64,000 bases of DNA from a virus. Location: positions 1 through 64,000 of IMG/VR virus record IMGVR_UViG_3300037041_001875; one strand, 5' to 3'. Made by a program: the position numbers and the translations under genes. Shown here in pieces: positions 10,867 through 64,000 of the stretch; position 1 is the stretch's first letter, and every line of letters starts with the position of its first letter. The notes under the pieces are model-generated. The model saw only the letters and a list, made by a program, of their open reading frames with translations, was not told where the DNA came from and did no database searches.

Positions 10867-11661
10867 TCAAACCTTCGTGTACAACATGGGCTCGAGCTCC
10901 CGGAAGAGCCCGTGCGGCGGCTTCGGGTCGGGAGGTCCGATGCCCAGCAGGCCGTGTTGCTTGAGCGCCTTCGAAATCTCTGTGAAGGTATCCTCGACGA
11001 CCGATTCCTCGAGGTACATGAGCAGATGCCGGCAGAGCACGAGGTCATAGACCGCTGGCTCGGCGCCCCACCAATCGCCCGTTCTGGTCCGCACGTCGGC
11101 GATCCTGGCGTGGATGCGCTCCGCGAGCTCGGGAATGAGCCGCATACGGCTCCCACGGATCTCCACGAGGGACTTCCAAACCCTCGCCGTCAAGAAGGTC
11201 AGCTTGTTCAAATGCCTCTTGGGAAAGGCCGGGTTCATGGCATTCTTGACGCACTTGGGCGAGATGTCCAGGGCGTCAATCGTGATGTTCTTCGCCGTGG
11301 TGAACTGGTGCAAGAGCAGGGCAATCGTGGCGAGTTCATGCCCGTCGGAGCACCCAAGAGACAGAACTCGCACGCTCTCGCCGGACCGGATTCGGCAGAG
11401 AAAGTGCCGCTGCAAGGCTTCCCAGAACGTGTGATTTCGACCGAAGTACGTCGAGTGCACCAGGCCATGATCGGCCAAGTTCGGCATCTCTTGGTCAATG
11501 TTCTCTCGGAGGTGTACTAAATAGGCCTTGGCCGTGGGGAATCCGCGAGAATGCGCATATTTTTTGATATGCCTCGCTGAGAAGTTTTTGACCACCGCAA
11601 TCTGAGCTCCAGTGTGCTCAACGAGAACGGCGCAGAACTGGGCATAAACCTTCTTTTCCAC
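10867..11661 (-). CDS. cheR: CheR-type SAM-dependent methyltransferase
   Basis: The 264-aa protein fits CheR: a short helical N-terminal domain, the SAM-binding segment VRVLSLGCSDGHELATIAL (about residues 95-115, CheR pattern GCSxGEE...), an IDALDIS acidic-loop strand, and VYDLVLCRHLLMYL, matching the CheR DLILCRNVLIYF strand. CheR methylates glutamates of chemoreceptors in the cytoplasm; a virus copy might retune host sensing or modify another target. The start is a GTG at 11661 with GGAGG five bases upstream. Its first 145 bases overlap the preceding zinc-ribbon gene in another frame. No CheB or receptor gene is nearby. Confidence 0.8.
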   Translation of the reverse strand: MEKKVYAQFCAVLVEHTGAQIAVVKNFSARHIKKYAHSRGFPTAKAYLVHLRENIDQEMPNLADHGLVHSTYFGRNHTFWEALQRHFLCRIRSGESVRVLSLGCSDGHELATIALLLHQFTTAKNITIDALDISPKCVKNAMNPAFPKRHLNKLTFLTARVWKSLVEIRGSRMRLIPELAERIHARIADVRTRTGDWWGAEPAVYDLVLCRHLLMYLEESVVEDTFTEISKALKQHGLLGIGPPDPKPPHGLFRELEPMLYTKV

Positions 11662-14578: not shown

Positions 14579-14845
14579 CTACGCTTGGTGCCTCGTGGAC
14601 GTGGAATCTAGAGCAGTGACGCTTGCCTCATCTTCCACGAGTTCGCCTATTATATGCTCACGGCACATTACCCATGAGCGTCTATCGGCCGAGGTATCCC
14701 CTCGAGAAGCAATATCAAACAGAGCACACCACGTCCCACATTGGGCAGCGCCGTCACCGTAAGGGCAATTGAGCTTGCGGCCATCTTCGGCCACGAGAAC
14801 CTTAGTGGTCTTGGTATTCTTTCGGACTAGGCTAACCTTTTTCAC
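14579..14845 (-). CDS. Small Cys-motif protein downstream of CysH
   Basis: The 88-aa protein contains NCPYGDGAAQCGTWCALF (residues about 26-43) and a later Cys (VMCREH), a CP-x6-C-x2-C-x-C-like arrangement seen in small phage proteins that may bind metal. Its ATG overlaps the stop of the CysH-like gene as ATGA, so the two are made together. It may be an accessory of the sulfur cassette, or unrelated. Confidence 0.6.
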   Translation of the reverse strand: MKKVSLVRKNTKTTKVLVAEDGRKLNCPYGDGAAQCGTWCALFDIASRGDTSADRRSWVMCREHIIGELVEDEASVTALDSTSTRHQA

Positions 14846-15465
14846 GGTTTCACCTCATGGATTCCACATTCCTGCCGCTCGCCGGCCCAGCGGCCAGAGC
14901 GTTCGTCGCTCGAGGTCGGCAACGCGGTGCAAGGACGGCACCCGATAGATCGGTATCCCTGGTCGTGCAACGATTGAACAGGCACGTCGTTATCTCGAAT
15001 GTATTTCCAGCATTCCTCGCTTGTCCAGTTTAGCATTGGAGCCAAACGGATCTTGCCTTTCCGGTCTGTCTCAATTTCCTTCGAGTCTTTGCGCGTCGAG
15101 GCTTGGTCCCACCGCAGGGCAGAAACCCACGCCTGGTAGGGCTCGAGCGCGTACCATAAAGGAAGCACCTTTCGCTCATTGCAGCACTCTTGCGCAGGCG
15201 GGAGGTGAGTGCCTTCCGTAGGACCGATCCAACGCAAGGCCAAATCCCATTGCTGGTGCATACGGTTGGCAAAGGCCACTGTTTCACTGAACAGCATGCC
15301 CGTGTTGATCGAAAGGACCGGGACGTGCTCCCAGACCTTGCGGGCATGATCGAGCAGAACCATCCCTGAATAGCCCCAAGCCGTCGTGAAGATTACCTTG
15401 TCATCGTACATATCACGATAGAAGTTCAGAGTCTCACGCAGCTTGTCAGACTTCTCTGTCACCAT
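14842..15465 (-). CDS. cysH: APS/PAPS reductase-like enzyme (CysH family)
   Basis: The 207-aa protein has the CysH order: a nucleotide-binding PP-loop-like strand VIFTTAWGYSGMVLLDHA (about residues 24-41), SINTGMLFSET (52-62), the Cys pair ECCNERK (94-95), QASTRKDS, NWTSEECWKYI, the CRPC pair (176, 179) and the C-terminal QECGIHE with the catalytic Cys at 200. The CC/CxxC set is the [4Fe-4S] ligand pattern of bacterial APS reductases. These reduce (phospho)adenylyl sulfate to sulfite with thioredoxin. cysH is a known auxiliary gene of phages; its coupling to PLP and ATP-grasp genes is unusual. DndC-type DNA sulfuration enzymes are related, but the ECGIH tail favours a true reductase. Confidence 0.85.
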   Translation of the reverse strand: MVTEKSDKLRETLNFYRDMYDDKVIFTTAWGYSGMVLLDHARKVWEHVPVLSINTGMLFSETVAFANRMHQQWDLALRWIGPTEGTHLPPAQECCNERKVLPLWYALEPYQAWVSALRWDQASTRKDSKEIETDRKGKIRLAPMLNWTSEECWKYIRDNDVPVQSLHDQGYRSIGCRPCTALPTSSDERSGRWAGERQECGIHEVKP

Positions 15466-16229
15466 GGCACTGGACCTTTCAGAGCTCCGGTGAGGTTGAT
15501 CACCGGGGGTCGCTCTGGATACCCATACTTCTTAGCCCAATGCCACCATCCTGCAAGGCTCACTGCGGCCTCGAGGCCTGGGGGAGGTAGGGAGCTCACG
15601 AGGCTCCGTAGATGCTCCGCGGCGCGGTAAATCTCCGATGCCGAGACCTCGATAACCTCTGGGAGCTCGGGCGCGTCGGCAAGAGCAGGTGCCCAACGGG
15701 GGATGAGCTCGGCCTCGGGGCGCACGGGAACAACCGTGGTGCTTCGAGCTGGCCAGACCGCTTTGACTGCGGCGCAACCGTATCCGCCGCCCGTGGCCTG
15801 GAAGTAATGGTGCGAGGGATTGTCGCGGTAGACCTCATGGATTTGCTGCAATATCTCTCGAGCCATAATCTGGTGAGCAATCATTTTCAATTGATTGTTA
15901 CTCCCAGCAAACAAAAATGTCCTTCCCTTATCGGACATTTCGTATTCGTCCATAACTTGCTTTATGACACGAATACGAGGAACTTTATCGTCCCATGTGT
16001 ATACTATAACATCTAAATCTTTGCATATGCTAGTTATAGCCTCGCCAGTATTACCACTAGTCGCCACAATAACCGTTCTCACGCCTTGTAAGGCCGCAAA
16101 GTGCTTCACGGCCATAGCTTCGCGGTATTTAAATGATCCCGTTGGGAGCATATAGTCACATTTAAAATAGACCATGCGTCCGCAACTATCATCTGATAGA
16201 ATTAAAGGGCTTCTTGTTATTTCTTCCAT
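15459..16229 (-). CDS. Fold-type II PLP enzyme, threonine-synthase-like
   Basis: The 256-aa protein has the PLP lysine motif PTGSFKYRE (Lys near 34), the SGNTG asparagine loop (58-62), the phosphate loop TGGGYG (146-151) and ends in LTGALKG like threonine synthases. It is shorter than typical members (300-420 aa), with a reduced C-terminal half. Members do beta or gamma replacement on serine/homoserine derivatives: cysteine synthase, threonine synthase, diaminopropionate synthase. Seven bases of overlap couple it to cysH; thirteen couple it to an ATP-grasp gene. Substrate cannot be told from the sequence; a cysteine or diaminopropionate-type product would suit its partners. Confidence 0.8.
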   Translation of the reverse strand: MEEITRSPLILSDDSCGRMVYFKCDYMLPTGSFKYREAMAVKHFAALQGVRTVIVATSGNTGEAITSICKDLDVIVYTWDDKVPRIRVIKQVMDEYEMSDKGRTFLFAGSNNQLKMIAHQIMAREILQQIHEVYRDNPSHHYFQATGGGYGCAAVKAVWPARSTTVVPVRPEAELIPRWAPALADAPELPEVIEVSASEIYRAAEHLRSLVSSLPPPGLEAAVSLAGWWHWAKKYGYPERPPVINLTGALKGPVPW

Positions 16230-17041
16230 GCTGCCCCCAAGAATTGTGCACCAGGGAAATGATTCATTTCAATGACTACATACTTGTTATTCTCATCGAA
16301 GGTTCCATCAACAGACCATCGGTGGTTCTTACAACCCTTAACCTTTGGCGCAACTTCTTTATTTATCTGCTCCACCACTTCGGGTATACCATCAATCCTA
16401 CCGCCAAAATGAGCAACGTTGAGAGTCTTTTGTAGTACTACCTTTGTACTTTTAGAGTCAAGATTGCTCAAATCCATATCTTCCGTGTCCCTTACAAAAC
16501 CATCTAAATCTACCAAGATATATTTTGGTTTTTTCCAGCCAGCAGTAGAAATACCTTCAAGGTTAAAATACACTGGCGTCATTGTTATAAAGTCCACACA
16601 GTCTTGCCCAATGAATCTAATAATGGGCGGGCATCGAGTATCATCCGTGAACTTGTGCAGTTGATCGGCCGGGTGAATCCATTCTTCGACAAACCACGCA
16701 CGAGAAGATAGTAATTTTTTGCGGGTATTTAATTTTATTCTTCTTATCTTATCTAGTTCAGAAGGTAAATCACTCGCTGAAAATAAACAGTCGTATGAAA
16801 AAATCATAAACCCTTCAGCAGTCTTCTCTAACAGAGCTACGCCACTATTCTGCCGACCACACCGCGGTTTCCAAACATATTTACCTATAGGCGCTTTTAT
16901 TAACCTATCTATATTGTAGTAAAACTCGCCTGGATTAATTAAGGTCGCAGGATAAGCAAGTGACGTGTTATCACTTAACCACTGCTTAGTGAAAATCTTG
17001 TCCCAAAACTCTTTAGCATTTAAAATCATTACTTCTTCCAA
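16217..17041 (-). CDS. ATP-grasp ligase-like protein, paralog 1
   Basis: The 274-aa protein has N-terminal KIFTKQWLSDNTS shared with its two neighbours, then the ATP-grasp landmarks: the strand with the ATP lysine YVWKPRCGRQNSGVAL (about 54-69), the adenine-contact strand WFVEEWI (about 116-122) and the C-terminal metal-binding DGTFD...YVVIEMN (about 244-262). ATP-grasp enzymes join a carboxylate to an amine or thiol via an acyl phosphate. AT-rich base use, more so than the reductase gene downstream. The family call is from motifs only; its overall look recalls tubulin-tyrosine-ligase-like members. Confidence 0.65.
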   Translation of the reverse strand: MEEVMILNAKEFWDKIFTKQWLSDNTSLAYPATLINPGEFYYNIDRLIKAPIGKYVWKPRCGRQNSGVALLEKTAEGFMIFSYDCLFSASDLPSELDKIRRIKLNTRKKLLSSRAWFVEEWIHPADQLHKFTDDTRCPPIIRFIGQDCVDFITMTPVYFNLEGISTAGWKKPKYILVDLDGFVRDTEDMDLSNLDSKSTKVVLQKTLNVAHFGGRIDGIPEVVEQINKEVAPKVKGCKNHRWSVDGTFDENNKYVVIEMNHFPGAQFLGAAWKK

Positions 17042-17853
17042 ACAACACCTAAGAAGGGTGTTCCTATGGCAGAGTTCATTTCAATTATAACAAACTTGTT
17101 ATCTTTATCAAATACGCCGTCAACAGACCAACATTTATTGTGGATTAACTTCAGTTTTGGGCTAATCTCACGATTCACTTGGTCAATAATCTCTCGAACA
17201 CCTTCAATTTTATGCCCACATAAATCGGTGTCTATACGCCTCTCCACAACAGACACTAGAGTTTTCTTGTCTGCGTTAGACAGGTCCATTTCATCGGTGT
17301 GCCTAACAACGCCATTGAAATCTAGCCATAAATACTTTCGATGGTCCCAACCAAAAGACGATATGCCGACCTCGTTAAAGTATACCGGCGAAATCACTAC
17401 GAAATGAACGGCGCTTCGTCCACAGATACGAATAATCGGCGGGCAACGCATATCATTTGTGAACTTGCCAAGTCTTTCGTGCGGTTTAACCCATTCCTCG
17501 ACAAACCAGTTTCGGTGATCTTTAGCTTCTTTAGCTTCTGAAATAGTTAATCGTTTTATTCTAGTTAATTCTTCAATTGTGTCCTGTAAAGGCATAACTG
17601 TATCAGATGGGAATATTTTATATCCGTCAACAGTTTTATTTATAAGAGCGATTCCCCAGCCTTTCCGGCCAAAACAAGGCTTCCAGACGTACTCACCTAC
17701 AGGCAAATCTTCCAATTTTTTAGCAACCTCGTTGAAAAGGGCTAATTCTACTATAGTTTTAGGATAGGCAAACGACGTGTTTTCACTTAGCCACTGCTTA
17801 GTGTAGATCTTATTTGCAAATCTCTTCGGTACTATTTTCAAATTGATAATCAT
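17029..17853 (-). CDS. ATP-grasp ligase-like protein, paralog 2
   Basis: The 274-aa tandem duplicate of the previous protein has KIYTKQWLSENTS, YVWKPCFGRKGWGIAL, WFVEEWV and VDGVFD...FVIIEMN in the same positions. Sequence similarity is spread over the whole length. Keeping three copies suggests that each adds a different unit or acts on a different acceptor. Its ATG overlaps the stop of paralog 3 (ATGA). Confidence 0.65.
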   Translation of the reverse strand: MIINLKIVPKRFANKIYTKQWLSENTSFAYPKTIVELALFNEVAKKLEDLPVGEYVWKPCFGRKGWGIALINKTVDGYKIFPSDTVMPLQDTIEELTRIKRLTISEAKEAKDHRNWFVEEWVKPHERLGKFTNDMRCPPIIRICGRSAVHFVVISPVYFNEVGISSFGWDHRKYLWLDFNGVVRHTDEMDLSNADKKTLVSVVERRIDTDLCGHKIEGVREIIDQVNREISPKLKLIHNKCWSVDGVFDKDNKFVIIEMNSAIGTPFLGVVWKK

Positions 17854-18740
17854 GGCCGTCTCAATGCGTCAAAATTGTGCAAGTGCTTCACATTTGGAGC
17901 ATGTTCTATTTCAATACAAACAAAATCCACTGAATCATCTTTGTTATGCCTATAGACTCCATCAAACGCAAACAAGGCGTTAGGGCTCATTACCGCACAC
18001 ACCTCAATTTTTATAGCCTCTATAATCTTATCAAAAAAGGGTAAAACCATCCCCGTAACGTCTTTCACCGTTCCATAATTCTCGATTGACCAAGGCAAAT
18101 CGTTTGGTATGTCTGGTCGGGTCTGTAAGAGCTCGCCCTTGTAGTTGAAACAGATGCGCCGTGCACCGCCCTGCAAGGTTCCGCGCCCTCGAGAAGCTTT
18201 CGTAGGTATGTGGAGCTCCCCAAAGTGGAAATCTCCGCGACTCATGATGATCCTCACGAGCGGATTGAACGGAGCATCATATCCAAGAGTTTTTAGTTCT
18301 TCTGGTGCCGGCGAAACATATTCCTCGACTATCCATTTATGTGCAGAGGGCACTCTTGGCATATCCGAAGAAATATCAACAAACAGTTCCGCGGCGTTGA
18401 GTAGTCTTAGATTAGCGTCTCTAAAACCCAAATCGTTAGGCTCTTTCCAAACCATTCGAACGCCTCTGGAACGCGATAGATTAATCGGTTTTACTACCAC
18501 CCAACGCTCTGTAGGACAACTAGAACTGACTAGCCACGTACATAAATCTGCCCATGTAGCTGAGCAGACTAATGTAGGCGGAACTTGAAATGACGTGTTA
18601 TTTAGAAGCCAATTCTTAGTCCATACTTTATTCCAAGTGGATCGCAGTAATTTCTTTTGAGGCGCAGCTATATTCTTTTTGCGCTCTCTAGGTGTTATTC
18701 GAACAACATGGGTCACCGTAGTTATGACAACTTTACCCAT
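17850..18740 (-). CDS. ATP-grasp ligase-like protein, paralog 3 (divergent)
   Basis: The start is set at 18740 (MGKVVITTVTHVVR), after GAAAGAAG; a longer frame to 18941 lies over the upstream gene. The 296-aa protein keeps KVWTKNWLLNNTS, WVVVKP (ATP lysine), KWIVEEYV and FDGVYR...VCIEIEH, but the Gly-rich loop and the C-terminus differ from paralogs 1 and 2. It also has an extra 30-residue basic N-terminal stretch. First ligase of the coupled set. Confidence 0.65.
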   Translation of the reverse strand: MGKVVITTVTHVVRITPRERKKNIAAPQKKLLRSTWNKVWTKNWLLNNTSFQVPPTLVCSATWADLCTWLVSSSCPTERWVVVKPINLSRSRGVRMVWKEPNDLGFRDANLRLLNAAELFVDISSDMPRVPSAHKWIVEEYVSPAPEELKTLGYDAPFNPLVRIIMSRGDFHFGELHIPTKASRGRGTLQGGARRICFNYKGELLQTRPDIPNDLPWSIENYGTVKDVTGMVLPFFDKIIEAIKIEVCAVMSPNALFAFDGVYRHNKDDSVDFVCIEIEHAPNVKHLHNFDALRRP

Positions 18741-19125
18741 CTTTTGGCTTCTTTCGTGGTGTTTTGGAGCGTACAATATGCCGAGGTGTATTCTTACCTT
18801 CTGCGGCCGCTTTGGTCTGGCGAGCTTTCTTCTCTTTTGCCCTACGCTCAAAGGGTCCAGTTCCATGCTCTGACATGAACTTGCCAGGGGAACTGGACAA
18901 AACTTGATTGTCACGTACCTCTTCCATCCCGCAAACATCACACGAATTCTCGCCCATCAAGCGATTGCCACACTTCTCGCACGATTTTGCGCCCATCCAA
19001 CATACAAAGCACAGGTCACCCACATGGGTGTCCCTGATTGGAGCACTATGCCGGTGACATTTCCTGCATGCCCTTATCGTGAGGGGGTAATGCCCCCAGC
19101 TCTTACTTGTAAAGGTTGTGGTCAC
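18733..19125 (-). CDS. Zinc-ribbon protein with basic tail
   Basis: This 130-aa protein has CRKCH, CFVC, CEKC and CDVC pairs (residues about 20-67), a double zinc ribbon, followed by a Lys/Arg-rich tail of about 40 residues that could bind nucleic acid. It is coupled (8-base overlap) to ATP-grasp paralog 3. It might deliver an acceptor or regulate the cassette; no direct evidence. Confidence 0.65.
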   Translation of the reverse strand: MTTTFTSKSWGHYPLTIRACRKCHRHSAPIRDTHVGDLCFVCWMGAKSCEKCGNRLMGENSCDVCGMEEVRDNQVLSSSPGKFMSEHGTGPFERRAKEKKARQTKAAAEGKNTPRHIVRSKTPRKKPKDG

Positions 19126-19381
19126 GGTACTCTTTCAGCGCCACAAAAACAGTGTCGGCGACCTCCCGCATTACCACGCCCTTGGCGCTATGCCAAAGCT
19201 GTGCGGTGATCTGCTCTTGCGATGAGCCCAGGGCGCTCGCAATGAGAATTCTAAGTGCGGCCGATATATTAAGCGATCCGCCCTCGTTTACAAGCCCGTT
19301 ATGCTCGGCAAAGACCTCAATTCGTTGGATTGTTTCAGCGTCCAATCTAACTGCAAGTGCTCGTGTTTGTTCTTTATTCAT
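19103..19381 (-). CDS. Ribbon-helix-helix-like regulator
   Basis: The 92-aa protein starts MNKEQTRALAVRLDAETIQRIEVFAEHNG, a beta-strand then two helices as in Arc/CopG/MetJ-type DNA-binding proteins (xxxVRLDxETxxRIE). The start at 19381 follows GGGGATCAAC. It precedes the zinc-ribbon and ATP-grasp genes and is a natural candidate for cassette regulator. Confidence 0.6.
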   Translation of the reverse strand: MNKEQTRALAVRLDAETIQRIEVFAEHNGLVNEGGSLNISAALRILIASALGSSQEQITAQLWHSAKGVVMREVADTVFVALKEYRDHNLYK

Positions 19382-19441
19382 GTTGATCCCCATATCACAG
19401 TTTTGGAATGTTTACAAGGACTGAAAATAGTAAACTGTTTT

Positions 19442-21952
19442 TTATTTTGGAACGTGGAGATCGAGGTGGTTGAAGCCTATTTTGCCTTCGACCTCAAAGG
19501 GCATGCAGTACGTTTTGCCGGTGATAGGCGAGGCCAGCTTCTTCGAGCAGCGTAACGAGTTCATGCAATCCTCGAGGGCTTGCTGAGCATAGTCGATGGT
19601 GACCTCGGCGCGGAGGTCATCATGAATCTGCATAATTGGCCAAACTCTTGTATGATAGTCGCCTTTCTCTTCCAATAGGCGTAACCATCTAATGGTAGCC
19701 GCATCTACAATATCTCCCGCGCCGCCTTGAACTGGGTGGTTCGTGGCCTCGGTGTCAGGCACTCCGCCCAATGGCCAGCGGCGTCGACGGCCGAGCCATG
19801 GCGTTCGGAGCTCGAAGGTTCGGTTGGCAATTTCAGTGACGTAAGCAGAATACTCGTTGACATTTTTGTATTTTGCCCGTTTGCGGGCCTGCATGGTCTG
19901 AACTTCTTGGAACGTGATCCCTGGAACATCCTCGCGCACATTCTCAAATAAGGTCTGCGGACCAGCTCGGTAAATGTCACCGAAGGTCACGGGCTTCGAG
20001 TTCGTCCTCAAGAGCTTGCGCTGGTCCGTGCTCGCTCGATTCCAAATCTCCCCGAAGTAGACCTCGGCGAACATAGAGTGCACGTCGGTCCCGTTGATGA
20101 AGGCCTCAATGAGATCCTCTTGGCCCGCGAGCAACACCGATATGCGCAGCTCGAGCGCCGCGAAGTCCACTGAGATGATGCAGCGCCCCGGAGCGGGCAC
20201 GAGCATACGTCGCATGGACCTCGGCCAGTTCTGCACAGCAGGCTTTGTGCCGAAGCGTCCCGAAGGCGTCGCGGTCTTGTTCCAGCGCGTGTGAATGCGC
20301 CCATCTTTGCCGACCTCCTGACCCAAACCGTCGATGTACGTCGAGAACAATTTCGTCTTGGTTCGGTAGGCCTGCAAGAGCTCGACGAACGGGTGATCTC
20401 TAAACTCAAAAAGGCTCGCGGCATCGGTCGAAAGCTGTCCGCTCTTCGTGACCTTCTTGGGTATCAAATTGAACTGGTCGACGAGCACCTTTTGAAGCTG
20501 CGGGGGGCTGTTCGGATTGAAATCTCGACTCCCCACGAGAGACCATATATTCTCTTTTAGGCATGCAATACTCTCACTGAATTCCTTATGCAGCACAAGG
20601 CGCGCAGCTTCGTCGACTCCGAGGCCGACCTTCTCCCAATCCATGGCGTAGCGCGTGATAATCCGATCCGTCTCGTACACGTTCAGAACGTTCTCACGAC
20701 GCATCTCTTGGCGCAATTTGTCATGCAGTAGAATCGTGTTCGCGGTGTCTGCACCGTTGTAGTAGAGCAGCGCGGGGATGTCCTCGTCGCTCACGTTTAT
20801 GAACCGCTTATCGTAGTATTCCTTCCAGGGCTCGACCGGGAAAAATTGGGTCGCCACAGCTTGCAAATCGTGGGGCGTCTTTGGGTAGATCGCATGGTGC
20901 TCAAGGAGAGTGTCTTCGATCTTCCCGGCGATCTTGATCTGCATCATTCGCTCGATGATCGGGACGTCAAAAGCCATGTTATGGAAGACCCACGTTCTCT
21001 CTGGATCTTGGAAAGCCGCTTTAAGAGCTCTCCAAGAGGAATGCCAGTCTTCCGTGGTGAAATACGAACGCAACCCTGGGCATGGAATAGCCACGGCGAA
21101 AGGCTTCTCTTCGCCTGTCTCGTCATCATAGATGAGACGCGCCAAACCTACCGTCGTGATCCCGCATTCGCGCACGTCTAGGCCATCGGTCTCGAGGTCC
21201 ACGGCCACAGGTTCCGAAGGCGACTCGAGCACTCGTTGAACAGCTTCGAAGGTGAAAGCCTCGACCACGGGCTGGCGCAACGCGATCTTCTCGTTGGCCA
21301 AGAGGTGTGCCTTCTCGACGTCAGCAATGAATAGATCCAACCATACGTGCCTTGCCGGCGAGCGCAGCATAGCTGCGGGATGGATGGTCGACACCACAAG
21401 CGTTCGCCATTCCTCTTCAGCAAAGGCCTCGGGCCGCAGTTGCGGCTCCACTATCTTCGGGTCAAAGTCAACAGGAAACTGAGCAGTCTCGGGCGCCAAT
21501 ACCTCGAGGGGATACTTGATACTAAAGTCTTGCCAAGTAGTAGCTCCTCGAAACTTCTCGACGCCTTTGAGGCCGGTCGTCGACTGCAATGCAATGCCCC
21601 CCAAGGTCAAGATCGCCCGTGGCTTGATCTCGACAATGTTGGCCTCGAGCTCCCCCTGGCAACACTCCCGAGCAATCTTCATTGCGGCATCCGATGGTTT
21701 GGTCCCGCCGCTGAAGTTGCACCGAATAGCATTCGTGATATGGGTCGCCTCGATTGACGTGTGCAGATAGTCCAGGACCGTCTTCAAGATGTGTCCCGAG
21801 GCCCCCACGAACGGAACTCCCCGCTTGACCTCTTCGCGGCCCGGGCTCTCCCCGATGACCATCAAGTTGTTCCACGCGACGAGGGGGTGTTTGTCCATGA
21901 CTTCCAATCCATTCTCGAAGAATGGGCAGGTAATCTGATTACATGGCTTCAT
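19442..21952 (-). CDS. Uracil-DNA glycosylase domain fused to family A DNA polymerase
   Basis: The 836-aa protein has three parts. Residues 1-215: a family 4-type uracil-DNA glycosylase domain with GESPGREE (34-41), PFVGASGHIL and HPAAMLR (191-197). Residues about 245-430: a DEDD 3'-5' exonuclease with VDLETDG (exo I), HNMAFD (exo II) and YNGAD (exo III). Residues about 430-836: family A polymerase with ATPSGRFG, motif A VDFAALELR (595-603), motif B RTNSKPVTFGDIY (649-661) and motif C IHDDL (776-780, Asp instead of the usual Glu of HDE). I recall that phage SPO1 polymerase has a similar N-terminal UDG-like domain. It replicates the element's DNA; the UDG part may read uracil or a modified base. 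GGGAG lies upstream of the ATG. Confidence 0.9.
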   Translation of the reverse strand: MKPCNQITCPFFENGLEVMDKHPLVAWNNLMVIGESPGREEVKRGVPFVGASGHILKTVLDYLHTSIEATHITNAIRCNFSGGTKPSDAAMKIARECCQGELEANIVEIKPRAILTLGGIALQSTTGLKGVEKFRGATTWQDFSIKYPLEVLAPETAQFPVDFDPKIVEPQLRPEAFAEEEWRTLVVSTIHPAAMLRSPARHVWLDLFIADVEKAHLLANEKIALRQPVVEAFTFEAVQRVLESPSEPVAVDLETDGLDVRECGITTVGLARLIYDDETGEEKPFAVAIPCPGLRSYFTTEDWHSSWRALKAAFQDPERTWVFHNMAFDVPIIERMMQIKIAGKIEDTLLEHHAIYPKTPHDLQAVATQFFPVEPWKEYYDKRFINVSDEDIPALLYYNGADTANTILLHDKLRQEMRRENVLNVYETDRIITRYAMDWEKVGLGVDEAARLVLHKEFSESIACLKENIWSLVGSRDFNPNSPPQLQKVLVDQFNLIPKKVTKSGQLSTDAASLFEFRDHPFVELLQAYRTKTKLFSTYIDGLGQEVGKDGRIHTRWNKTATPSGRFGTKPAVQNWPRSMRRMLVPAPGRCIISVDFAALELRISVLLAGQEDLIEAFINGTDVHSMFAEVYFGEIWNRASTDQRKLLRTNSKPVTFGDIYRAGPQTLFENVREDVPGITFQEVQTMQARKRAKYKNVNEYSAYVTEIANRTFELRTPWLGRRRRWPLGGVPDTEATNHPVQGGAGDIVDAATIRWLRLLEEKGDYHTRVWPIMQIHDDLRAEVTIDYAQQALEDCMNSLRCSKKLASPITGKTYCMPFEVEGKIGFNHLDLHVPK

Positions 21953-23576: not shown

Positions 23577-24299
23577 TTATCTGCCCTCAATTTTGGCGCA
23601 GGATTCGAGGCCCAATATTTCTGCGAAGTCGTCGTAATGAGGCGACGGCCCTATACGGGCGAATCCAGCATTGTTTGCGTGAGCTCGAGCGAGGCGCATG
23701 CGCGCTGGCCACGTGCCAAATTTGCGCCCGTGGACGTACCATTCGAGGCCCTTAGTTCCCATGTCCTTCACGTCACTGTACAATAGCAGGTCTGCGTTAC
23801 CTGGAAAGAAATTCTTGGAGTCGCCCTTGAGAGTGAAGGTGCGCTCCTTGTCCGAATGGCAAATCCAAATTGAATGAATCGGCCATTTTTTGATGGTTGT
23901 CATAAGATGCACGAAGAAGCTCGTAAATTTGCCCCAGTGCTCCCACTCGAGTTTGTTGACCTTGAACTCCTTCTTAATCTCGTCTTCGAATAGGAGCTGT
24001 GTTATCGTTAGGTTGTCCAACACGAGAGTCTTACAAGCCAGCTCGCCGCTCTCAATGGCTTTGCCGAGCGCTTCGAGTTGCACTTTCAAGTCTTCCATGC
24101 TCTTGAAAAAGACCACGGGCAGATTGAAGTCAGCCAAGGTCCGCATTTCTCCCCGAGCAATGGTAGGCACCAGGAACACCGGATAGGGCCATGTCCCAGC
24201 GAAGTGCGTCTTACCGGCGCCATTCTCACCGTACAATAGAACGTTGTACGTTGCATCTGATAGCAGATCCGACGTGCTGGACAATCGCAAATTACCCAT
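23577..24299 (-). CDS. Sak4-like RecA-fold ATPase
   Basis: The 240-aa protein has Walker A YGENGAGKTH (about 23-32), then PVFLVPTIARGE (where Sak4-type proteins have ...fldtE.G), Walker B TLVLDNLT (about 92-99) and a sensor-like IWICHS strand. Phage Sak4/AAA_24 proteins are single-domain RecA relatives promoting single-strand annealing recombination with an SSB. The neighbouring SSB-like, exonuclease and PD-(D/E)XK genes fit. It is also the only intact P-loop that could be considered for packaging, but context argues for recombination. Confidence 0.75.
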   Translation of the reverse strand: MGNLRLSSTSDLLSDATYNVLLYGENGAGKTHFAGTWPYPVFLVPTIARGEMRTLADFNLPVVFFKSMEDLKVQLEALGKAIESGELACKTLVLDNLTITQLLFEDEIKKEFKVNKLEWEHWGKFTSFFVHLMTTIKKWPIHSIWICHSDKERTFTLKGDSKNFFPGNADLLLYSDVKDMGTKGLEWYVHGRKFGTWPARMRLARAHANNAGFARIGPSPHYDDFAEILGLESCAKIEGR

Positions 24300-46880: not shown

Positions 46881-47471
46881 ATGACTGTTAGCGGACGCAC
46901 AGGTATATTCACAGGAAAAGTAGATCCTATAACGGATTGTTTGCATGCCATAGAAAATGAGCATGCTAAAATACATGGTGGCCGTCATTTCTTTTCTTAT
47001 ACAGCAGACAGATACGGATCGCTAGATTCAGAGAGAACAGGCACAAATTTTCTTATAATTCCCCCGACAGTTAATTCGGGGTACAAGTGCCACTTTACAT
47101 TTAAAGTGCTGTATTTTGGCGCAATTGAGTTATGTCTTGAAGAAGACATCACCTATACCGGTGGCAGCGCAGTTTCTATTTATAATAATGACCGTGCTAG
47201 CGCCACTTCAGCTTTAACTCAAATAAAACAAGATGTAGCAATCACGGGTGGCACGCGGACACAATTAGTACCAGCATATCTAGGAGATATTCCTAATGGA
47301 TTAGGAACTAGTGGAAGTTTTTCGGTTGTTAGACCGGATGAAGAGATCATATTGAACGGTGCCTATAATTATATTCTTAAGATGGATGTTCACAATTCTG
47401 GAGAATTGTTAGCGGGTGATAACGTAACGACAACAATATTTCAATTTTACGAACATGTAAACATCGAGTAA
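46881..47471 (+). CDS. Virion-associated beta protein, paralog A
   Basis: The 196-aa protein has MTVSGRTGIF...ENEHAKIHGGRHFFSY at the N-terminus and FYEHVNIE at the end, shared with the next two genes (VHTGDAFYV; WYEHTNVEN). The H-x-IH-x-G-xxF pattern is common in phage minor structural proteins. This copy is clearly more AT-rich than its paralogs, indicating a separate origin. Confidence 0.7.
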   Translation: MTVSGRTGIFTGKVDPITDCLHAIENEHAKIHGGRHFFSYTADRYGSLDSERTGTNFLIIPPTVNSGYKCHFTFKVLYFGAIELCLEEDITYTGGSAVSIYNNDRASATSALTQIKQDVAITGGTRTQLVPAYLGDIPNGLGTSGSFSVVRPDEEIILNGAYNYILKMDVHNSGELLAGDNVTTTIFQFYEHVNIE

Positions 47472-47480
47472 GGTGATTTT

Positions 47481-48029
47481 ATGACGGTACGTGGACGAAC
47501 AGCAATCTACCCAGTACGCATCGATCAAACGACCGATGCCGCCGCAGTAGTTGACTATGAGCACAAAGAGGTTCACACGGGTGACGCCTTCTATGTGACT
47601 CAAGTGGATGAGCTTGATGATACGGAAATCACGTCTCATCGTTTCCTTCCGCCAAATACTGCGGAATGGATGCACTTCTTCTTTATTATCGAGGCTCAAG
47701 CAGCTTGTTTGATAGAAATACGCGAAGGCATAACCGATGGCATAGAAGCTAGCTCAGGTATTCTCAATCGAAATCGTAATTTCTCGGATGCTCTGGCCAC
47801 TATGAAGCATGAAAGACAACTGGGAGCGGCTACGCTTGGCACAGTGATATGGTCTTGGGCCAGTGGTGGGGCAACTGAAAATTCTAGGACTCCTATGCTA
47901 ACTCGGCAGAGTGGGGAAATCGTACTAAAGCAGAATACGCTATACGAAGTCCGCGTGACTTCAAGTGTGGATGATAACATCGTGTCGACTTATTTCACTT
48001 GGTATGAACATACCAACGTGGAAAACTGA
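47481..48029 (+). CDS. Virion-associated beta protein, paralog B
   Basis: The 182-aa protein begins MTVRGRTAIYPVRIDQTTD, contains YEHKEVHTGDAFYV (about 28-41) and ends WYEHTNVEN. Lies nine bases after paralog A. Nearest relative is paralog C. Probably a surface decoration or adaptor protein made in three variants. Confidence 0.7.
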   Translation: MTVRGRTAIYPVRIDQTTDAAAVVDYEHKEVHTGDAFYVTQVDELDDTEITSHRFLPPNTAEWMHFFFIIEAQAACLIEIREGITDGIEASSGILNRNRNFSDALATMKHERQLGAATLGTVIWSWASGGATENSRTPMLTRQSGEIVLKQNTLYEVRVTSSVDDNIVSTYFTWYEHTNVEN

Positions 48030-48038
48030 GGTGTTGTC

Positions 48039-48584
48039 ATGACAGTTGTAGGACGCACTGCACTATTCCCAAATAAGATAGACCAGACAACCTCTGGTAA
48101 AGCCCAGCTAGAGTATGAGCATAAGCAGGTTCATAGTGGTGATGCTTGGGTAGTGACATACAATGCGTCGACTGATGCAGCGGCAACCTTAGACCGTTAT
48201 ATAGTGGTCCCAAACACAACGAGATGGCCTCACGTATTTTGGGACATAGTTGGTCAAGGTCTAACAACCATTTCGTTGTATGAAGGTGCTTCTGGCACCT
48301 ATGATCCTGTCACAGCGTACAATAGAAATAGAAACAGTGTTCGGGCTAATACGACTGTCATAGGCAATCCAACGGGAATAATCACGGCAGGAACCTTGAT
48401 ATGGACGTGGCAGTCTGGCACAACGGGACCATCCCGGGCGCGGGGCTCGGGCGCTACGCGAGAGACCGGCGAGCTCGTATTGAAACAGGCTACAACCTAC
48501 TTGCTTCGATGCACGAGTGGCGTGAATAGCAACATAATCTCGGTAGACTTGATTTGGTACGAACAAACAAACATCGAAAACTAG
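48039..48584 (+). CDS. Virion-associated beta protein, paralog C
   Basis: The 181-aa protein begins MTVVGRTALFPNKIDQTTSG, contains YEHKQVHSGDAWVV and ends WYEQTNIEN. Ten bases after paralog B. A GC-rich patch with RARGSGATRETGEL near residue 128 interrupts otherwise AT-leaning sequence. Confidence 0.7.
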   Translation: MTVVGRTALFPNKIDQTTSGKAQLEYEHKQVHSGDAWVVTYNASTDAAATLDRYIVVPNTTRWPHVFWDIVGQGLTTISLYEGASGTYDPVTAYNRNRNSVRANTTVIGNPTGIITAGTLIWTWQSGTTGPSRARGSGATRETGELVLKQATTYLLRCTSGVNSNIISVDLIWYEQTNIEN

Positions 48585-58145: not shown

Positions 58146-58502
58146 ATGTCTATAAATTCATGCCGGCCCAACGTACTCAAGATGACCGCAGGCCAGGCGA
58201 AGAAATTCCTCGAGGCCCAAGACAAACCAACGCTCGTCCAGTTCGCCGCAGATTGGTGCGAGTTCTGCGAAGCCTCGAAGCCGGAAGTCGAAGCGGCCTC
58301 GGCGGCACTGTGTGATCGAGCCCGAGTGGTCCGCGTGAACGTCGATAAAGCTCCCCAGCTCGCGGACAAGTTTGGCGTGAACGCTCTCCCCGATTTCGTG
58401 GTCATGCACCGCGGCAAAGTCGTGGCGCGCATCAAAGGCTATGCGGACCGGAAAACGTTGCTACGAGCGGTTTCTAAGGCCTTGCAGGCGAGGAAACACT
58501 AA
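58146..58502 (+). CDS. Thioredoxin-like protein
   Basis: The 118-aa protein has the thioredoxin fold order: TLVQFAADWCEFCEASKPEVE with active site CEFC (38-41), VVRVNVDKAPQLADKFGV and the cis-Pro loop ALPDFVV, RGKVVARIKGY. No signal peptide, so it is cytoplasmic. It may keep the many Cys proteins reduced until assembly, or supply electrons to the CysH-like reductase. Strong GGAGGAG ribosome site. Confidence 0.85.
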   Translation: MSINSCRPNVLKMTAGQAKKFLEAQDKPTLVQFAADWCEFCEASKPEVEAASAALCDRARVVRVNVDKAPQLADKFGVNALPDFVVMHRGKVVARIKGYADRKTLLRAVSKALQARKH

Positions 58503-61716: not shown

Positions 61717-62233
61717 TCTCTTTTTCTTTTATCTCCTTGCGCAAATTGTCGTCGCACGTCAGGTCATCGCAGCAATGACAAAGTTGAATATGCGTCCGCT
61801 TGCACCACTCACTGATACTGATACCTTCGGGGGGTGAGATAACCCGATTTATCTTTTCTATGTCTTCTCTCGGCTCGACCTCTTCGAGCATCCAAGCATG
61901 GTTGACGGCCCACTGGCTCACTTTGGCTCTCATCTCGTGCAGTTCTCTCTCGAGCTCGTCTCGGTCGGCTTTCAATGCTTGTATACAATCAACGATTCGA
62001 TTTGCGACCTCTTTGGCGGTGCAAGGCCCCTCAACATCGACCTCCCCAATTAGAGCACCTTTGGCCTCTTCTAATACTTTACGAAGAGCCATGTTCTCTT
62101 GGTCGAGGTCTTCTATCACACTTTCTACCTCGTCTACTTCGATCTTGAGAGCGTCGCGCTCGCCTTCTATTTCGGCAAACTTAGCCTCTCGACAATCACA
62201 CGCATGATGATGGACTGTACATTCTCTTGTCAT
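61700..62233 (-). CDS. Coiled-coil protein with His/Cys-rich ends
   Basis: The 177-aa protein has a HHHACDC start, a long Glu/Leu coiled coil (about 20-115) and a C-terminal HIQLCHCCDDLTCDD cluster, possibly a metal site. It overlaps the integrase start by 17 bases. Asp at residue 90 here, Gly in the copy at 1-369. Role unknown. Confidence 0.7.
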   Translation of the reverse strand: MTRECTVHHHACDCREAKFAEIEGERDALKIEVDEVESVIEDLDQENMALRKVLEEAKGALIGEVDVEGPCTAKEVANRIVDCIQALKADRDELERELHEMRAKVSQWAVNHAWMLEEVEPREDIEKINRVISPPEGISISEWCKRTHIQLCHCCDDLTCDDNLRKEIKEKENEPKR

Positions 62234-62325
62234 CCTTTAACCCCCTTAAAGGCCCTGGCCATAATCTCGAGGGGGCGCCGTAGCCTAGTCAATTCGATTT
62301 CTAACTGGTCGTCCTCGTCAGACAT
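62230..62325 (-). CDS. 31-aa protein (second reading)
   Basis: Identical to 366-461; same molecule seen again past the circle junction. Confidence 0.5.
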   Translation of the reverse strand: MSDEDDQLEIELTRLRRPLEIMARAFKGVKG

Positions 62326-62327
62326 TG

Positions 62328-62846
62328 TCATTCTCCTTCGAGGCTTTCGAGCTCATCGAGCGCTTCGACGAGTCGCGTAAGAGACTTGATCTCGTGCTCT
62401 GGTCCGTAGGACACATAAGGCGCCCCGCGAGCTTCACGTTGCAGGTTGACAATCACGGCGAGCTCGAGTTGATAGTCTCGAGATGAGCTGAGCTCGGCCT
62501 GCCGTGGGTCGCTGTTCACGAGGTCTTCCCGCCGAGTTACCGCTTCGATTTCCTCGACGGTGTCGTCTTGCGGCGGCAAGGCCTCGGCGGGAACCTGCTC
62601 AGCCTCGAGCACTGGCTCTGAGCGAGCTTTGAAGCACTCATCGCAATGATCCGTGCGCGTGCCGTCGAGGTTACGGCCTCCATGCCAACCAGGCGCGTGC
62701 AGACCGTCGAGGAACCATATCGACGGGATCGGCCCCTTCCATTGGGGGTCGTATATCGTATGCTCGATGCCGCATAGGTCGCACTTGATATGCGGCTTGC
62801 CGGGAACGCCGTCCAGTCTATCGTCTAAACCGCAATGGTAGCTCAT
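62328..62846 (-). CDS. Two-CxxC hypothetical protein (second reading)
   Basis: Identical to 464-982. Confidence 0.7.
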   Translation of the reverse strand: MSYHCGLDDRLDGVPGKPHIKCDLCGIEHTIYDPQWKGPIPSIWFLDGLHAPGWHGGRNLDGTRTDHCDECFKARSEPVLEAEQVPAEALPPQDDTVEEIEAVTRREDLVNSDPRQAELSSSRDYQLELAVIVNLQREARGAPYVSYGPEHEIKSLTRLVEALDELESLEGE

Positions 62847-63114
62847 GAAAAGTCGTGTCCACTTTCCGGGCCTCTTCGACCTCTTCGGGCGTAGGTACTC
62901 GATTCTCTCGCTGATAGGTGTTAAGGCCACAGCAACACCCCGCGCCTGCACACAATGTCGTTGCATAAGCTATGCTCATCGCAATAAGGTGGCAGCGCCA
63001 ACGCTGGCCGTCCCAGAATAAGTGCTTGCAATACGTAACAGGATCAAACCCACCATAACTGCATGGTCCCTTACGGCAACAAAAACCGCAACCTATGCAG
63101 GCCTTCCCGATCAT
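62818..63114 (-). CDS. YkgJ-like Cys-rich protein (second reading)
   Basis: Identical to 954-1250. Confidence 0.75.
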   Translation of the reverse strand: MIGKACIGCGFCCRKGPCSYGGFDPVTYCKHLFWDGQRWRCHLIAMSIAYATTLCAGAGCCCGLNTYQRENRVPTPEEVEEARKVDTTFHELPLRFRR

Positions 63115-63332
63115 TTCTTCTCCCAGCTAGAGCAAAGACTCGAGCCGTCTGTATAAACCGTGACTCTTCGAGGAAAGACCTCGTTGGCGTCCAAATAGCT
63201 TCGAAGCTCACACTTCCAATAACGTCCCTTGTAGCCGAAATCCGCCAAAATTTCAGCGCTAGTCTCATAGCCGCTCTTGTGTTTGCAATCCTTACAGCTC
63301 TTGCCCCTTGGATGTAACACGTCAACAGTCAT
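63111..63332 (-). CDS. Small CxxC protein (second reading)
   Basis: Identical to 1247-1468. Confidence 0.65.
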   Translation of the reverse strand: MTVDVLHPRGKSCKDCKHKSGYETSAEILADFGYKGRYWKCELRSYLDANEVFPRRVTVYTDGSSLCSSWEKK

Positions 63333-63522
63333 GGCTTTCCTTCCAGCCGTCCTTTTCGAGGATTGCCTCGAAGGGACGTTTGTGCATACGGTGTCCATAT
63401 TCCCATAGCTTTGAATCAGCCCAGCGACCGCCGTAGTACACTTCTTGGTCGTTGATACACTGCACAAGCAGGTCTGACCCATCGGGCGAAACGAACCTTT
63501 GTCCTGCTCTAACGACTATCAT
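63322..63522 (-). CDS. 66-aa hypothetical protein (second reading)
   Basis: Identical to 1458-1658. Confidence 0.6.
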   Translation of the reverse strand: MIVVRAGQRFVSPDGSDLLVQCINDQEVYYGGRWADSKLWEYGHRMHKRPFEAILEKDGWKESHDC

Positions 63523-63562
63523 GACAACTAACCTTTTTTATCCGCCAAATACAATGGAATCT

Positions 63563-63652
63563 CTAGGTGCTTACCTTGTTATGCCCCATGGAGTAATAAT
63601 ACGCCCAGCCATGATTTCCTAAATCCGCAACAATCTGCTCATTGTCTAGCAT
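63563..63652 (-). CDS. Possible 29-aa peptide (second reading)
   Basis: Identical to 1699-1788. Confidence 0.3.
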   Translation of the reverse strand: MLDNEQIVADLGNHGWAYYYSMGHNKVST

Positions 63653-63655
63653 GGG

Positions 63656-63835
63656 TCACTTCCCTCTTTCTAAATAACGGTCACAAGCTCTGCTATTAGC
63701 ATGTGCTGGCCGTTCCGCCGTGTGTCCCGATACGTATATCAAGCATCGACCATACCCATAAGGCCAGTTTGCGTTAGTGCCTCTGCCATTGATGTAGCAC
63801 TTACAGGTTCGGCAGGTCTTAGGTGGGTGTCCCAT
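63656..63835 (-). CDS. Zinc-ribbon-like protein (second reading)
   Basis: Identical to 1792-1971. Confidence 0.65.
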   Translation of the reverse strand: MGHPPKTCRTCKCYINGRGTNANWPYGYGRCLIYVSGHTAERPAHANSRACDRYLERGK

Positions 63836-63851
63836 GGGGAGCTCCTTGCGG

Positions 63852-64000
63852 TCAGTCGTCCTTGACAGTGCCAAAAATGCGGTACGACTCGATCCCTGTG
63901 GCCTTGTCGTTGAAAGGCCCCTCGACCATCGCGTCGGGAATGAACGTCAAGGCCTCGGCAACTTGATCGCCGAGCTGCGTCGACACTTGCACGAGCACCC
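63852..64000 (-). CDS. 103-aa hypothetical protein, C-terminal part only (second reading)
   Basis: Matches the end of the gene at 1988-2299; its start lies beyond the window. Confidence 0.7.
   Translation of the reverse strand, partial: VLVQVSTQLGDQVAEALTFIPDAMVEGPFNDKATGIESYRIFGTVKDD

Follow-up and report, generated by a model that had tools for sequence, protein, structure and literature searches.

A viral gene cassette of ATP-grasp ligases, a pyridoxal phosphate enzyme and CysH that may make and attach a sulfur-containing amino acid

The DNA analysed here (the window) comprises positions 1 to 64,000 of the virus record IMGVR_UViG_3300037041_001875, which is 65,599 bases long. Between positions 18740 and 14842 its minus strand carries a five-gene cassette, in which three tandem ATP-grasp ligases (ATPg1 to ATPg3) are followed by a fold-type II pyridoxal phosphate (PLP) enzyme and then by CysH (Table 1). 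All five open reading frames described there in an earlier note on this DNA are present and tightly linked. Successive genes overlap by 4, 1, 13 and 7 bp with the ATG start of ATPg3; a longer ATPg3 starting at an alternative TTG at 17041 overlaps ATPg2 by 13 bp, so that the 4 to 13 bases originally given for the junctions are real with this start and become 1 to 13 bp with the ATG. An in-frame GTG at 18941 would provide an upstream start for ATPg1, but its overlap with the zinc-ribbon gene makes this start the less likely one.

The identity of CysH is secure from its sequence. The protein passed the cut-offs of PF01507 (PAPS_reduct; E-value 3.7e-35, 121.9 bits, cut-off 22.5) and of the NCBIfam equivalog NF002537 (178.1 bits, cut-off 154), and stayed below that of TIGR02055 (155 of 235), the model specific for adenosine 5'-phosphosulfate (APS) reductase. 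Alignments with 7lhr and the APS reductase 2goy span most of the protein and take in the cysteines of the ECC, CxxC and ECGIH motifs; the cluster cysteines C94 and C95, and C176 and C179, align with 2goy, and the catalytic C-terminal ECGIH at residues 199-203 is invariant in the relative virus described below. The iron-sulfur cysteines point to the APS-reductase type. Sulfite is the product of the CysH family, and it is probably the end product of this enzyme too, because the gene families recognised in the genome include none for reducing sulfite or making sulfide. Many papers report cysH as an auxiliary gene common in viruses, and the protein resembles known CysH in its near full-length match, its equivalog score and its iron-sulfur cysteines; it differs in having a PLP enzyme and ligases as neighbours. 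Its sole matches in annotated phage records are less than 32% identical. The closest of these, in CAKLQH020000002.1 (labelled Acinetobacter phage MD-2021a), lies beside mreBCD, rng and a wax synthase and was set aside, since genes of such bacterial appearance indicate that the record is probably mislabelled bacterial DNA. A reading as a defence system was also dropped, PADLOC having given only BrxP/QueC superfamily echoes of CysH. At 58146-58502 the window encodes a thioredoxin-like protein with a WCEFC motif, a possible CysH reductant, which has no match in the incomplete contig of the relative.

Membership of the PLP superfamily is likewise secure for the fourth protein, a short and orphan enzyme that passed the cut-off of PF00291 (PALP; 4.1e-17, 62.9 bits, cut-off 35). 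Its catalytic Lys34 (GSFK), Asn60 (SGNTG) and phosphate-loop Gly147-Gly149 (TGGGYG) align with those of threonine synthase, cysteine synthase and other PLP enzymes, and the three motifs are conserved in the relative.

The three paralogues upstream are very probably ATP-grasp proteins, according to profile, residue and model evidence that is convergent and individually modest; the assignment is less firm than those of the PLP enzyme and CysH. ATPg2 matched ATPgrasp_ST (PF14397) at 2.9e-6 (27.2 bits, below the gathering score of 31.4), and this model also recovers five of the seven ligase homologues of the two viruses at an E-value of 0.1, the ATPg3 match being weak. Further weak matches linked ATPg2 to YheCD (0.009), MptN (3.4e-5), and the RimK family model rimK_fam (TIGR00768; 0.0017, 17.7 bits, below the cut-off of 143.4), and ATPg1 to ATP-grasp_4 (0.036) and rimK_rel_E_lig (0.005). 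Nearly all weak profile matches of the ligases are to ATP-grasp families, with a marginal EAGR_box match as the sole exception. The alignment of the seven sequences displays, in order, a KP lysine, W[FI][VA]EE[WY], an arginine, the aspartate of a DG pair and E-[IM]-[NE]. Residues K58, E119/E120, R142, D245 and E258 are invariant, and N260 is Glu in ATPg1, which keeps the metal-site Asp and Glu and has EIE where the other paralogues have E-[IM]-N; the ATP and Mg roles that we give these residues, N260 included, are those familiar from ATP-grasp proteins in general. Among the paralogues ATPg1 forms a deep outgroup, with identities of 25-28% to the others, and ATPg3 is 46% identical to ATPg2. The motif K-x-x-TK-x-WL-x2-NT is found in all three paralogues of the window and all four of the relative, although the serine that the earlier note placed at its end is a threonine in two of the seven; the remaining motifs noted at that time (GSFK, SGNTG and TGGGYG in the PLP enzyme, CC, CxxC and ECGIH in CysH) are all present.

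The AlphaFold2 model of ATPg2 was poor (predicted local distance difference test score, pLDDT, 50; predicted template-modelling score 0.47) and fair only at residues 138-266; the model of the PLP enzyme was poor as well, in both cases because the alignments were shallow. The Foldseek check that had been proposed for the ligases nevertheless ranked enzymes of the ATP-grasp fold highest among the PDB matches of this ATPg2 model at pLDDT 50, namely Ddl, ArgX with LysW, PsnB, PurP, tubulin-tyrosine ligase, synapsin and carboxylases, with no match past an E-value of 0.001. A PDB sequence-profile search with the ligases returned no ATP-grasp match, and hhalign gave a negative result when the ATP-grasp profile was compared with E. 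coli RimK, GshB and DdlB, one sequence at a time. The identities first proposed, those of CysH, a threonine-synthase-like PLP enzyme and ATP-grasp paralogues, are supported. The viral ligases are like the RimK/MptN/LysX-ArgX and ATPgrasp_ST ligases in their weak profile matches, in their fold matches (ArgX, Ddl, PsnB) and in the K, E, R, D and E-x-N positions; they differ in reaching no curated cut-off, in occurring as three to four tandem paralogues per virus and in carrying an N-terminal signature of their own, the K-x-x-TK-x-WL-x2-NT motif. Among their matches in BFVD are an ATP-grasp protein of a Tenacibaculum phage and viral tubulin-tyrosine ligases (TTL). The R2K/TTL-type ATP-grasp ligases of jumbo phages and giant viruses are predicted to join amino acids to proteins, and a PLP or CysH partner is not described for them in the portions of that source drawn on here (PMC7824862).

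The cassette recurs in a related virus. Contig IMGVR_UViG_3300048831_000066 (L003, 42.3 kb) is colinear with positions 13,072-54,221 of the window at about 80% DNA identity and keeps the gene order of the cassette, with four ligases instead of three. The extra ligase (L003:7162-8004) is 52% identical to the relative's own ATPg2 and 45% to its own ATPg3; it branches among ATPg2 and ATPg3 before the split of the two viruses and is absent without trace from the window. Ligase number is thus labile between related viruses, and the idea that three ligases perform three successive additions is weakened by this difference in count, ATPg1 being moreover very divergent. Between the two viruses the proteins are 81% (ATPg1), 61% (ATPg3) and 88% (PLP enzyme) identical, and the ratio of nonsynonymous to synonymous substitution rates (dN/dS) is 0.06 for ATPg1, 0.04 for ATPg2, 0.19 for ATPg3, 0.09 for the PLP enzyme and 0.14 for CysH. 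Judged by these ratios, all cassette genes are under purifying selection and have been kept functional, and the Pfam and NCBIfam E-values, the conservation in the relative and the dN/dS of 0.04-0.19 place the cassette far from chance. The relative also carries, at L003 1030-1446, a gene whose sequence reads as that of a probable dCMP deaminase; it is missing at the matching place in the window, near 23577.

The ligase genes stand apart in composition. In the window they are AT-rich, with a GC content of 0.39-0.45 overall and 0.38-0.41 at third codon positions, against 0.56 and 0.69 for the polymerase gene, and CysH and the polymerase have an overall GC of 0.55-0.58. Ligase synonymous sites are nearly saturated between the two viruses (proportion of synonymous differences 0.63-0.74, versus 0.36-0.49 for the polymerase, PLP, CysH and HD genes). 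The first 240 bases of the PLP gene are low in GC like the ligases, and its 3' part has a CysH-like GC. The composition and divergence of the ligase genes suggest that they are foreign in origin and have had a history of their own or a faster one.

Scans of viral contigs with the PLP enzyme, ATPg2, the alignments, a GSFK-RE ... SGNTG DNA motif, CysH and the polymerase returned this one other carrier only, so that the neighbourhood search suggested earlier finds the PLP, ATP-grasp and CysH genes together in the single relative available. A 10.8-kb contig (L004) has the polymerase but ends inside it, before the cassette would begin. Scans of genome contigs with the ATP-grasp alignment and the PLP motif gave nothing; the contig scans rest on short conserved peptides, by which distant relatives may be missed, and an empty result does not equal absence. 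With tblastn, neither ATPg1 nor ATPg2 had a match in phages, nor ATPg2 in plasmids, and the PLP enzyme had none in phages and only generic PLP enzymes in plasmids. None of the papers searched combined cysteate and ATP-grasp. Each of the families is known, as are viral CysH and viral ATP-grasp ligases; the combination is without description in the collections and literature searched, as the earlier note had supposed.

The flanking genes (those for the ribbon-helix-helix-like regulator, the zinc-ribbon protein, orf88, orf184/HD and orf77/orf96) likewise overlap, making 19.4-11.8 kb one packed operon. At the edges of the five-gene set the zinc-ribbon gene and ATPg1 share 8 bp, and CysH and orf88 share 4 bp; because overlapping junctions run on at both sides, overlap alone cannot delimit the five genes. 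Just upstream of the ribbon-helix-helix-like gene lies a UDG-PolA fusion (19442-21952), a family A DNA polymerase with an N-terminal uracil-DNA glycosylase (UDG) domain, which is common to both related contigs (60-93% identity). Downstream of orf88, which has no family match in Pfam or PHROGs, are membrane-protein-like, HD-nucleotidase-like and glucosaminidase-like genes, and beyond the gene run of the cassette a CheR-like methyltransferase is encoded at 10867-11661. The zinc-ribbon and ribbon-helix-helix genes had been proposed as possible cassette members; they are indeed conserved operon neighbours, but conservation does not fix their membership, since the polymerase and the downstream genes are equally kept in the relative. 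The zinc-ribbon protein was considered as a LysW-like carrier and dropped, its C-terminus being basic, unlike the acidic EDWGE that we take to be the LysW-type end.

Table 1. Genes of the cassette and its immediate operon neighbours (window coordinates).
Gene	Position	Strand	Length (aa)	Description
Ribbon-helix-helix-like regulator	19103..19393	-		Upstream operon neighbour; PHROG transcriptional repressor 0.015; 96% identical in relative
Zinc-ribbon protein	18733..19125	-		Upstream operon neighbour; zinc-ribbon Pfam models weak; 82% identical in relative
ATPg1	17850..18740	-	296	ATG start
ATPg2	17029..17853	-	274	RimK/ATPgrasp_ST-like ATP-grasp ligase
ATPg3	16217..17029	-	270	ATG overlaps ATPg2 stop as TAATG
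PLP enzyme	15459..16229	-	256	Fold-type II, threonine synthase/cysteate synthase-like
CysH	14842..15465	-	207	Iron-sulfur-type APS/PAPS (3'-phosphoadenosine 5'-phosphosulfate) reductase
orf88	14579..14845	-		Small cysteine-containing protein, downstream operon neighbour; 80% identical in relative

Positions 1-2136 of the window are repeated at 61865-64000 with one mismatch, which makes the genome about 61.9 kb long and either circular or bounded by long direct repeats at its ends. None of the families that PHROGs and Pfam listed for the 51 main genome proteins is a terminase, portal or major capsid family, and no packaging-ATPase candidate emerged from a strict scan for Walker A motifs; the virus may possibly belong to an undescribed lineage. 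Three similar genes in tandem in the late region (46881-48584; MTVxGRTxxFxxKxDxxT..., xEHKxVHxGD) probably encode virion proteins, and several predicted late proteins encoded within 31392-61815 begin with a single membrane segment.

For the PLP enzyme the best NCBIfam match is to thrC (TIGR00260; 4.2e-10, 39.3 bits, below the cut-off of 167.1), followed at a distance by cysteate synthase (TIGR03844; 7e-5, 21.8 bits, cut-off 324.9). In the PDB profile search cysteate synthase ranked best (6.9e-5), ahead of O-acetylserine sulfhydrylase (1.1e-3) and serine racemase (1.4e-3), while pairwise hhalign put threonine synthase first, at 97%; in the fold search with the poor PLP model threonine and tryptophan synthases were near the top and the remainder was unusable. 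The stretch YFQATGGGYG resembles YFQAVGSGTG of cysteate synthase, where the aligned threonine synthases have PVGNAGN, and the C-terminal INLTGALKG is like both the TG-GLK end of threonine synthase and NITGGG of cysteate synthase and unlike the CysK end. The viral enzyme shares with cysteate synthase the fold type and the YFQA-G-G-G stretch at 256 residues against about 400-435, and with threonine synthase (ThrC) the TG-x-LK end, while lacking the GN-GN loop and middle segment of ThrC. We take it as an orphan branch near the threonine synthase/cysteate synthase pair, its subfamily being not statistically secure. Cysteate synthase uses a phosphoserine-type substrate and sulfite, and occurs in the coenzyme M pathway of Methanosarcinales and the sulfonolipid pathway of Bacteroidota. 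The title of Graham et al. (2009; cited in PMC6286981) gives threonine synthase as its evolutionary origin, and it is the first enzyme of the four-step sulfonolipid route from L-phosphoserine (PMC11211663).

Our leading interpretation, put forward tentatively, is a virus-borne module in which sulfite from CysH enters a sulfur amino acid made by the PLP enzyme, which the ligases attach to an acceptor. CysH, identified by its sequence, would reduce host-activated APS or PAPS to sulfite, and the PLP enzyme would use sulfite as the nucleophile in a beta-replacement, acting on a substrate of the serine type that is probably phosphorylated, O-phosphoserine for instance, to give L-cysteate or a related sulfonated amino acid. 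The RimK-like paralogues would then activate a carboxylate as the acyl phosphate and join the amino acid through an amide bond to an acceptor, perhaps a peptide, a protein or a cell-surface sugar acid, so that the module may alter some component of the host cell or of the particle being formed. Being encoded in the replication-gene operon, it would probably act early or mid infection, and we propose that the paralogues have different partners, which would account for three ligases in one virus and four in the other. The earlier suggestion of sulfite as nucleophile is a reasonable one; the enzyme of the best PDB profile match uses sulfite, but no subfamily is statistically secure for the viral protein. 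In favour of the module, the only relative found preserves the five genes and their order, with purifying selection on all of them. Several observations weigh against it: NCBIfam ranks threonine synthase well above cysteate synthase, with both below cut-off; the C-terminal half of the PLP enzyme alone gave no significant PDB match; its 256 residues lack segments found in all compared enzymes; the ligases differ in GC (0.39-0.49) from CysH and the polymerase (0.55-0.58) and in synonymous divergence from PLP and CysH, so the parts of the cassette may have come separately; and the two viruses are close (about 80%, colinear), which makes conserved order weak evidence of a pathway. We lean slightly towards the ligases using some sulfur-containing amino acid. 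Cysteate is favoured as the product by the best PDB profile match, and that the product is exactly cysteate is conceivable, if rather unlikely.

A possible if doubtful alternative holds that the packed operon joins two unrelated modules, an ordinary sulfur auxiliary CysH and a PLP/ATP-grasp system for peptide or surface modification, such as the addition of an amino acid to an envelope sugar acid. The whole 19.4-11.8 kb run is made of overlapping genes of mixed function, the best Pfam match of the ligases is a sugar-transfer-associated ATP-grasp family, and the ligases differ from CysH in GC and synonymous divergence; yet the PLP-CysH order with its tight overlap is kept in both viruses, the GC boundary is not clean (the 5' third of the PLP gene is ligase-like and its 3' part CysH-like), and no sugar-transfer gene was recognised beside the cassette. 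We consider it unlikely that CysH instead feeds a host sulfite reductase, with a sulfide-using PLP enzyme of the cysteine synthase type and ATP-grasps that build glutathione-like cysteine peptides for redox balance in infection. The end NLTGALKG is unlike that of CysK, the phosphate loop is without the GTGG of CysK, and no sulfite reductase or serine acetyltransferase was recognised among the families of the virus; to be set against this, CysK/CysM-type enzymes also match the PLP profile, viral cysH is common, the virus has a thioredoxin-like gene and glutathione synthetase is an ATP-grasp enzyme. Joining of the amino acid to a nucleobase, as DNA hypermodification, is very improbable: the operon is shared with the UDG-PolA fusion and an HD deoxynucleotidase-like gene, but the families found include no recognised thymidylate-synthase-like, hydroxymethylase, base kinase or PurZ-type gene, which speaks against attachment to DNA. 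Crosslinking of a short precursor peptide, as in graspetide-like ribosomally synthesized peptides, has hardly any likelihood even though the ATPg2 model has the graspetide ligase PsnB as one of its fold matches, since a precursor gene could not fit between the five genes, which overlap end to end, the small proteins encoded on either side are basic or rich in cysteine, and we know of no role for a PLP enzyme or CysH in graspetide pathways.

In its boldest form the proposed sulfite module would be a sulfonate pathway encoded by the virus itself, with a minimal PLP enzyme making cysteate and ligases, differing in number between related viruses as though their specificity were changing, writing it onto a host or viral molecule, which we regard as distinctly unlikely. 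As a rule, metabolic genes of viruses reinforce a pathway that the host already has, whereas a nucleophile maker, an amino-acid maker and ligases look like a pathway for a product that the host may not have. The ATP-grasp ligases, three to four per virus, small and divergent, and the 256-residue PLP enzyme are in themselves subjects for enzymology. If cysteate or another sulfonated amino acid is indeed placed on proteins, surface sugars or the particle, the outcome would be a viral chemical modification of a new kind, which might serve to evade defence or to exclude other viruses.

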